64,000 nt of DNA from NCBI RefSeq assembly GCF_018524365.1, contig NZ_JAEKFT010000021.1, forward strand, positions 1 to 64,000, given 5' to 3'. The position numbers and the translations under genes were made by a program. This DNA is from Denitromonas iodatirespirans. Lineage in GTDB: Bacteria; Pseudomonadota; Gammaproteobacteria; Burkholderiales; Rhodocyclaceae. A model generated the notes under the pieces. The model saw only the letters and a list, made by a program, of their open reading frames with translations, made no database searches and was not told the origin of the DNA. The stretch's first letter is position 1; each line of letters opens with the position of its first letter. This document shows, piece after piece, positions 20,293 to 49,045 of this stretch.

Positions 20293-20324
20293 CTGGCCAG
20301 GGGGTTGTCAGACAGGACGGCATT

Positions 20325-20480
20325 GACGGCCGGATGAATCCGGCCCTACACGGCCTGGCCCAACGGGCCTCCACCCCCCCCAAGAATCCGGGACCGTAGG
20401 GCGGGATTCATCCCGCCATCGGTGGCGCTGGGAGGCGTGGTTTGGCGGATTGAAACCCCAGCCTACCGGGCCGGTAGGTT
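20325..20480. repeat. Palindromic repeats between convergent genes (family C)
   Basis: GGCCGGATGAATCCGGCC (20328-20345) and the unit GTAGGGCGGGATTCATCCCGCC (20396-20417) are perfect or near-perfect hairpins, followed by the related GGCGGATTGAAACCCCAGCC. Similar units lie at 39572-39621. They fill the space between the ends of two convergent genes and could act as REP-like transcript ends. Confidence 0.6.
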
Positions 20481-39550: not shown

Positions 39551-39571
39551 TCCGGGCGAATCACCGCCCCA

Positions 39572-39621
39572 CCGTAGGGCCGGCTTCAGCCGGCCATGGC
39601 GGGTTGAAACCCGCCCTACGG
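39572..39621. repeat. Double palindrome between convergent genes (family C)
   Basis: CCGTAGGGCCGGCTTCAGCC then GGCC, followed by GGCGGGTTGAAACCCGCC and CTACGG: each half is a hairpin, and the outer CCGTAGGG/CCCTACGG ends also pair. It separates the LysR gene from the convergent cytochrome b gene. Confidence 0.6.
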
Positions 39622-39630
39622 AGGGACGCA

Positions 39631-45205: not shown

Positions 45206-46669
<1,464 letters not shown>

Positions 46670-46670
46670 T

Positions 46671-46938
46671 GGGGGCTGCCGACATGATTTTGAACATCGC
46701 GTTGCGCCCAAACAGCGCCCCAATACCCCACACCAAACGGCGGAGCGTCGTACGCTCCGACGAAGGCTACCACCCGGCATGCAGGCTGTTTGGGCACAAC
46801 CCTCCGGGCTCAAGGCGGTTTGGTCGCATGGCTGCGTTGCGCCTCCTCGCTTGGGGGCCACCCAAGCAGCGTCGGCGCGCCTTGCCCTGCAACCAAACCG
46901 CCATGAGCGCGATGTCCAAAACCATGTCAGCAGCCCCC
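46671..46938. mobile_element. MITE-like element with 31-bp terminal inverted repeats, between sufB and sufC
   Basis: The ends 46671-46701 and 46908-46938 are inverted repeats matching at 28 of 31 positions (GGGGGCTGC at the left tip, GCAGCCCCC at the right). Inside are nested palindromes: GCCCAAACAGC (46706-46716) with GCTGTTTGGGC (46785-46795), the hairpin GGAGCGT-CGT-ACGCTCC (46742-46758), and long arms 46814-46843 and 46873-46902 starting GGCGGTTTGGT. There is no coding potential. I see no clear target-site duplication. It abuts the sufB stop and ends two bases before the sufC ribosome binding site GGAG. Confidence 0.7.
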
Positions 46939-46952
46939 TTGGAGAACTAAAT

Positions 46953-47734
<782 letters not shown>

Positions 47735-47738
<4 letters not shown>

Positions 47739-49045
47739 GCGACGTCGACACCTGGCTGGCCCACTACCATGCCCACTCGGCCGTGCTGCCGGGCGCCGAG
47801 CTGCCCTGGCTGGCCGACATCCGCCGGCAGGCCATCTACCGCTTTGCCGACGAAGGCTGGCCGACCCGCCGCCATCCGCGCTGGAACCACACCTCGCTGG
47901 CCTTCATGGACCAGCAGGACTTCGCCCCGGCCGGCGTCGCCCCCGATGCCGCCGCGGCGCTCGCCCGCCTGCGCGGTGAAGATGCCGGCCACTGGCTGGT
48001 GTTCGTCGGCGGCCGCTTCGACGCAGCCCTGTCGGACATCGGCCCCCTGCCCGCCGGCGCCCAGCTGAGCAGCCTCGCCGAGGCGCTGGCCACGCATCCC
48101 GAAGCGGTCGAAGCCGCCTTCGGCAGCCATGAGGACGGCGACAGCCCGGCCGCGCTCAACGCCGCGCTGGCCAGCGACGGCGCCTGGCTGCGCCTGGCGC
48201 GCGGCGTGACGCTGGAGGCCCCGGTGCATCTGGTGTTCATCGCCGGCGCCGACGAGGCCAGCCGCCACCTGCGCAACCTGATCGTCGCCGAGGCCAACAG
48301 CGAAGCCACGGTGGTCGAGCACTACCTGGGCAGCGGCGAGGCCAGCACGCTGACCACCGCGGTCACCCGTCTGCAGGTGGACGCCGACGCGCGGCTCACC
48401 CATCTCAAACTGCAGCAGGAAGCCGAGCAGACCGTACACCTGGCGCGCATCGACGCGGTGCAGGGGCGCGGCGCGCGCTTCGCCTCGCACTCGCTGTCCT
48501 TCGGTGCCCGCCTGGCGCGCCACGACATCGGCACCCGCTTCGACGGCGAGGGCTGCGAGGCGCTGTTCAACGGGCTCTATCACCTCGACGGCCGGCGCCA
48601 TGTGGACCACCACACCCGCATCGACCACGCCCAGCCGCGCGGCACCAGCCGCGAGTTCTACCGCGGCCTGCTCGACGGGCTGTCGCGCGGGGTGTTCACC
48701 GGGCGCGTCATCGTCGCCAAGGACGCCCAGCGCAGCGACGCCATGCAGCGCTGCGACAACCTGCTGCTGTCGCGCCAGGCAGAGGCCGACGCCCGGCCGG
48801 AGCTGGAGATCTATGCGGACGACGTCAAGTGCAGCCACGGCGCCACGGTCGGCCAGATCGACGAGGACAGCCTGTTCTACCTGCAGACCCGCGGCCTGGA
48901 CGAAACCCATGCCCGCCGGCTACTCACCTACGCCTTTGCCACCGAAGCGCTCGACCGCATCGACCTGGCGCCGCTGCGCAAGCAGGCGCGCGCCGCGTTG
49001 ATGGCGCGCCTGCCCGGCGGCGAACTGCTGGAGGAACTGTTGTGA
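47735..49045 (+). CDS. sufD: Fe-S cluster assembly protein SufD
   Basis: The 436-residue protein is the SufB paralogue SufD: an N-terminal helical part ending RHPRWNHTSLAFMD, the parallel beta-helix core (ASVSY-like repeats, VVEHYLG), and the conserved C-terminal KCSHGATVGQIDEDSLFYLQTRGLDE with catalytic-region His and Cys. It completes the SufBC2D scaffold. The start overlaps the sufC stop and the end overlaps the sufS start, showing tight translational coupling. Confidence 0.95.

Follow-up and report, generated by a model that had tools for sequence, protein, structure and literature searches.

A probable Y-shaped MITE between sufB and sufC of Denitromonas iodatirespirans and its dispersed relatives

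In the window, by which we mean the whole analysed stretch of 64,000 nucleotides from Denitromonas iodatirespirans, sufB and sufC are held apart by a 268-bp unit that we consider, with a probability of roughly 0.87, to be a MITE of a Y-shaped family: a non-autonomous transposon of IS5 type that has decayed and become fixed in the suf operon. We file it as a variant of the MITEs on account of its shortness, its lack of a transposase gene, its terminal repeats, its dispersed copies and the empty sites in relatives. The usual description of bacterial MITEs is of IS-like remnants that have a single long stem. We propose that an IS5-type transposase acting in trans would once have inserted this copy directly after the sufB stop, that the insertion would have been tolerated, since it left that stop and the ribosome-binding site of sufC undamaged, and that the copy would now be immobile. 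In the mRNA its very stable fold would most likely only uncouple sufC translation from that of sufB or shield the upstream message.

The unit at the sufB-sufC junction

The TAA stop of sufB ends at 46669 and sufC begins at 46953, so that the gap is the 283 bases given in the initial annotation; the anatomy of the unit within it is listed in Table 1. Its 31-base ends are inverted repeats of each other with 28 of 31 bases complementary (90%), and the unit ends two bases before the GGAG of sufC, both as originally described; at the left, a single base, rather than the two claimed, separates the sufB stop from the first base of the arm. Three nested palindromes had also been reported. Two inner inverted repeats are indeed found inside the ends (46701-46716 with 46785-46800, and 46805-46832 with 46884-46911), but they lie side by side, and because they are adjacent the layout is that of a Y and not of three concentric palindromes. 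The four-base overlaps said to join all genes from sufC to sufU were found at sufC/sufD and at sufS/sufU, and exist at sufD/sufS only with the GTG at 49042 as the sufS start, which the reading frame suggests; the gene after sufU begins 10 bases downstream of sufU. Open frames crossing the unit are parts of longer read-throughs, and 268 bp is too short for a transposase gene. No promoter-like or intrinsic-terminator-like site was found between 46500 and 47100. The folding energy of the unit was -152.8 kcal/mol, as against -103.1 (SD 5.1) in 200 shuffles, a z of -9.7.

Table 1. Features at the sufB-sufC junction (positions in the window)
Feature	Position	Strand	Remark
sufB	45206..46669	+	SUFBD_core match
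Whole element, Y-shaped MITE copy, 268 bp	46671..46938	.	7 more full-size copies in host genome
Left terminal inverted repeat / outer stem	46671..46701	+	28/31 complementary to right end
Arm 1, 100 nt	46701..46800	+	basal stem 46701-46716 / 46785-46800 retained
Arm 1 apical hairpin, 8 bp, remaining	46741-46759		conserved tip replaced or diverged
Spacer hairpin between arms, 7 nt, CC-TCC-GG	46801..46807	+	
Arm 2, 101 nt	46808..46908	+	
Arm 2 conserved 51-nt tip motif	46834..46884	+	model R1: 70.3 bits, E 1.9e-11; one of the 34 sequences used to build R1
Right terminal inverted repeat / outer stem	46908..46938	+	complementarity with left end
GGAG ahead of sufC	46941-46944		intact
sufC	46953..47738	+	ABC_tran match

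Comparison of this junction with that of related strains, as the initial annotation had proposed, showed the site without the unit. sufB was found in six of nine genomes of the same genus, and in all six (6/6) the unit was missing between sufB and sufC; the gap was 54-58 bp in five of these and 156 bp in the sixth (G002). It was 13 bases in Cognatazoarcus halotolerans (Betaproteobacteria, Rhodocyclales), whose SufB is 94% identical, and in many relatives sufC starts 10-66 bases after sufB. The absence of the unit from the suf site in relatives means that in the host lineage it was inserted or took the place of a short spacer; taken together with the related units at other places in the host and other genomes, this absence indicates that the window unit derives from a mobile element, which was the first of the two readings originally put forward. 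The second was a regulatory RNA fixed in the suf operon, with a fold that would tune sufC relative to sufB. The presence of the same 268 bp at this exact site in all relatives, and nowhere else, was to have pointed to such an RNA, and the opposite was found. This RNA would fit the position of the unit exactly between the two genes and its very stable fold, which is mostly paired despite the divergence of the copy. It would also fit the finding, described in excerpts of PMC7518266, that in a synthetic E. coli operon re-initiation is limited by stable structure immediately downstream of a stop codon; such structures are also reported there to be depleted between closely spaced operon genes. With the unit absent from the site in 6/6 relatives, and related units found at unrelated places, we regard it as improbable. 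By the same limiting of re-initiation (excerpts of PMC7518266), the fold of a transposon derivative could loosen the coupling of sufC to sufB, and its effect on the transcript would probably be passive or mildly insulating, mild if any.

The 156-bp gap of G002 (locus L112) holds an unrelated palindromic pair of the GTAGGTCGGACTTCAGTCCGAC type; as a different pair occupies the same gap, the sufB-sufC junction has acquired repeats on at least two occasions. A copy of the family itself lies between trpG and trpD in G003 (names assigned from translated gene ends), in a gap of 278 bases, and is flanked by TAG at one end and by TAA at the other; in the other nine of nine genomes of the genus this copy is absent and the gap is 11-62 bases. 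In G000, G005 and G009 (L349, L345 and L346) the trpG-trpD spacer has 62 bases instead of the 11 of their relatives, and in G000 and G009 this spacer was seen to have a GC-rich palindrome of its own.

The window copy retains the outer stem, both arms, the spacer hairpin and the full arm-2 tip, and its arm-1 tip is without the conserved motif. Its pairing, at 77 of 96 positions, is the poorest among 18 copies, and it is 50-65% identical to the other full copies. A search of the host genome with its terminal repeat had been suggested: the inner 19 bases of that repeat have no other match there with three or fewer mismatches. The ends have no counterpart among the seven IS stretches examined, the flanks contain neither TA nor a target duplication, and no transposase in the host genome passes the NF033580 cut-off, with four weaker matches present. 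From the lost arm-1 tip, the unique terminal repeat, the lack of TA and the transposase matches below cut-off, we read the copy as probably old and immobile. The arm-1 tip was also tried as a second dispersed palindrome and rejected, as its 22-base core has no second occurrence in the host genome with three or fewer mismatches.

The dispersed family and its fold

BLAST of the host genome with the window unit gave 12 matches at nine places, the window counted, and 9 of 41 genomes, the host counted, contained matches. The host genome has eight full-size copies, including that of the window, of a family with units of about 267 bp; extracted full copies measured 265-268 nt, or 277-279 nt with a small insertion, and G020 has four copies at four sites that are 98-100% identical. 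A 51-nt tip model built from 34 examples, run with stricter filters in both censuses, matched 26 of 81 genomes, with 25 matches in the host genome, and 15 of 299 genomes sampled from across the phylum (the host included in each); positive genomes had 1 to 25 matches each. When the 145 tip matches listed are merged, 115 regions result, and 30 of these have two tips. A clear terminal repeat was found in 71 of the 115, and boundary statistics exclude the 44 regions, including all 14 of G181, without a terminal repeat of score 13. At suf loci the tip model matched only the window (81 sources). Neither the window copy nor copy C159 had a match in the plasmid and phage collections, nor did L273 in the plasmid collection. 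Rfam gave no match on the window; at ten loci with other copies it gave nine at E <= 1, the only one above its cut-off being a tRNA that lies outside the unit, and the best match below cut-off, to a microRNA model (E 0.00013), was taken as a hairpin artefact.

Other members of the phylum, more distant, had 10-19 tip matches each (L358 in G330, and G322, G403 and G477), and since many of those in G330 are equal in score their spread may be recent. Remote copies with other terminal repeats (L357, L361, L362 and L363) have, by eye, tip-like segments around a CCC..GGG spacer; the best fold of L357 is without a clean Y. The 51-nt tip occurs with several terminal repeats, for example GGGTCTGTTGACA, GGGCGTGTTCACAG, GAGTTCATTTCAG, CTAGAAACCGCAGTTGACC and CTAGTGTGCTGTTCC, the last of which may be IS630-like; with several types present, a single dominant terminal repeat for the family was rejected. 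A second class of repeats, of about 240-320 bp (L229, L235, L241, L244, L246 and others), contains the same 51-nt tip motif and has ends of the form CTAGAAACC..AGTTG...

In the consensus layout the terminal repeats form an outer stem that encloses two arms of about 100 nt each, with a CC-NNN-GG hairpin between them whose CC/GG pairs are both present in 18/18 copies of alignment A1. Among these 18 copies, 65 of the 97 pairs of the consensus fold were changed on both sides, and the covariation score was 0.506, as against 0.154 (SD 0.009) in shuffled alignments and at most 0.084 in slid controls. Because this fold was derived from the same alignment on which it was scored, and because related sequences can exceed shuffles, a second set matters: when the 18-copy structure was applied to an alignment of 24 rows, of which 23 were new and some came from the same genomes, 80 of the 97 pairs were changed on both sides and the score was 0.650, as against 0.188 (SD 0.008) shuffled and at most 0.124 slid. 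Two of the 25 candidates for this alignment (L284 and L315) were dropped, and C159 was kept to carry the structure. Folded singly, 22 of the 23 new copies gave z values of -19.9 to -9.1 (30 shuffles each; L308 left out). Pooling old and new copies gave 45 units of 255-286 nt from 16 genomes, of which 42 had two large arms in their best fold; both arms measured 95-102 nt in 38 of these 42, and the spacer hairpin 7-11 nt in 39. The arms of L284 were unequal, and the Y layout was not seen in L268, L292 and L294. Over all lengths, the fold was two-armed in 54 of 70 units. Both tips exceeded the tip-model threshold in 30 of the 45 full-size units, and a single tip did so in 15.

Column figures, calculated on 13 of the 18 rows after removal of C2b, the window copy and three near-duplicates, separate the stems from the tips. 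Mean identity was 0.59 in arm-1 stem columns, with pairing in 97% of cells, 0.75 in the outer stem, with pairing in 98%, and 0.68 in arm-2 stems, with pairing in only 84%; identity in tip columns was 0.87-0.90, and in unpaired arm-1 tip columns 0.96. The stems change their sequence but keep their pairing, and the tips keep their sequence together with their mismatches. A precise three-stem architecture that is kept while most stem pairs are replaced is the mark by which functional structured RNAs are recognised; alternatively, such stems would be a clear natural case of palindrome self-correction. The arm-1 tip of copy C2b (L007:1476-1754, minus strand) is inverted relative to the other copies, which indicates that strand switching occurs in the arms of the family. 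We lean, short of proof, towards some selection acting on the family fold over template-switch correction alone, since the latter would be expected to remove the tip mismatches.

Such selection would be central to the view that the Y fold is itself a function, an RNA or DNA module at gene ends, and that the window copy is a domesticated structure still at work. This is compatible with a MITE origin, and we hold it to be possible though rather doubtful. The covarying stems and the tips that keep sequence and mismatches speak for it, as does the occurrence of the tip motif with several different-looking terminal repeats. Against these stand the loss of one tip from the window copy, the 15 of 45 full-size units with a single tip above threshold, the modest 1 to 25 tip matches per positive genome and the presence of units in both orientations relative to the preceding gene; the covariation of the stems could also stem from template-switch correction of palindromes.

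Terminal repeats, flanks and gene ends

The exact 15-mer TAGGGTCTGTTGACA was found in 4 of 150 family genomes and its reversed control in none. The sequences that it bounds are family units in G000 and G020 and, in G075 and G143, frames with matches to IS5-family transposase models. The L187 frame scored 139.8 bits to NF033580 (cut-off 110); the partial L175 frame scored 99.5 bits, below that cut-off and above the Pfam cut-off for DDE_Tnp_1_2. Copy C159, the best preserved, has 17 of 17 terminal bases, GGGTCTGTTGACAATCA, in common with the IS ends in G075 and G143; the partner-transposase test covered the GGGTCTGTTGACA terminal-repeat type only. The interiors of C159 and the IS are unrelated, the remaining matches being 9-15 bases long with E 0.2 or worse. 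Origin from an IS5 element by internal deletion is not supported, as only the 17-bp ends of C159 match. Of the seven IS ends shown, six are preceded by CTA and one by TTA, and only the C of CTA is informative because the search pattern itself contained TAG.

Among 46 units examined for TA flanks, 43 could be scored and three had no scorable start; TA was present on both sides in 15 of the 43, on one side in 19 and on neither in 9, the frequency of TA in the flanks being 0.0144. A gene end, that is, a reading frame of at least 100 codons ending -12 to +8 bases from the terminus, was found at 38 of the 71 clear-ended units; of 14200 positions drawn at random from their flanks, 1189 (8.4%) had one. 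The flanks, 124,682 bases in all, contain CTAG only 36 times, and 13 of the 36 lie at such gene ends, so that a CTAG/TA target could explain much of the placement. Duplication of the TA lets the first G of the inserted element complete a TAG stop, as at trpG, and a TA/CTAG target would offer a simple explanation of how units can settle behind the stop codons of operons without breaking either gene. Units follow genes in both orientations, the window copy and L251 forward and L288 reversed.

Palindromic, extragenic units with TAG at gene ends are also what a repeat of REP/BIME type mobilised by a RAYT (HUH) transposase would give, and GTAG-REP-like repeats occur both in the window and in the sufB-sufC gap of G002. 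A length of about 267, TA flanks, ends with no GTAG/CGTC head, and long terminal repeats that in one copy are common to a DDE-type IS5 element make this origin highly improbable. At 20318-20427 and 39565-39628 the window contains palindromic pairs with GTAGGGC...GCCCTAC-like ends that resemble GTAG-type REP pairs.

A decayed MITE of IS5 type remains our reading of the window unit. For the family as a whole we would offer, as a speculation to which we give less than even odds, an unnamed old family of mobile Y-shaped elements across Pseudomonadota, the fold of which would be inherited in place of the sequence, with interchangeable terminal repeats borrowed from different TA/CTAG-targeting transposases, and which would deliver a structural module to stop codons as a 3' end or insulator. 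If this is true, the module consists of two 100-nt arms, conserved tips that are persistently mismatched and a 7-nt spacer hairpin, and is read as RNA or as folded DNA.

Comparison with known systems

Neither a name for the family nor a description of the Y layout was found in Rfam or in the available portions of the open-licence papers searched, which is weak evidence of novelty. The bacterial MITEs described in excerpts of PMC2229807 (Correia/NEMIS, ERIC, RUP and YAPL) resemble the family in being short and dispersed and in having terminal inverted repeats, in several cases with TA at the termini, and a stable folded transcript. Other bacterial repeat elements form a stem-loop by pairing of their ends, without arms or linker, according to the same excerpts (PMC2229807). 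The present family departs from those MITEs in that its paired ends surround two arms and a spacer hairpin, all of nearly constant length. The Caulobacter CIR repeats also have two arms, connected by a linker; these differ, in a comparison by description, in being about 110 bp long and having a GANTC motif, and excerpts of PMC2229807 describe no terminal-repeat stem for them. Insertion sequences of the IS5 family (NCBIfam NF033580, transpos_IS5_3) have a 17-bp terminal repeat identical to that of copy C159, but carry a transposase and have an unrelated interior. The termini of GTAG-tagged REPs, like those of the family, often provide the TAG stop of the neighbouring gene, whereas these repeats are 20-40 bp long, have other ends and are associated with RAYTs (excerpts of PMC3733652). 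Ribosome termination structures, finally, share with the window unit a stable structure right past the stop codon, but in the relevant excerpts of PMC7518266 they are local mRNA folds and not mobile units.
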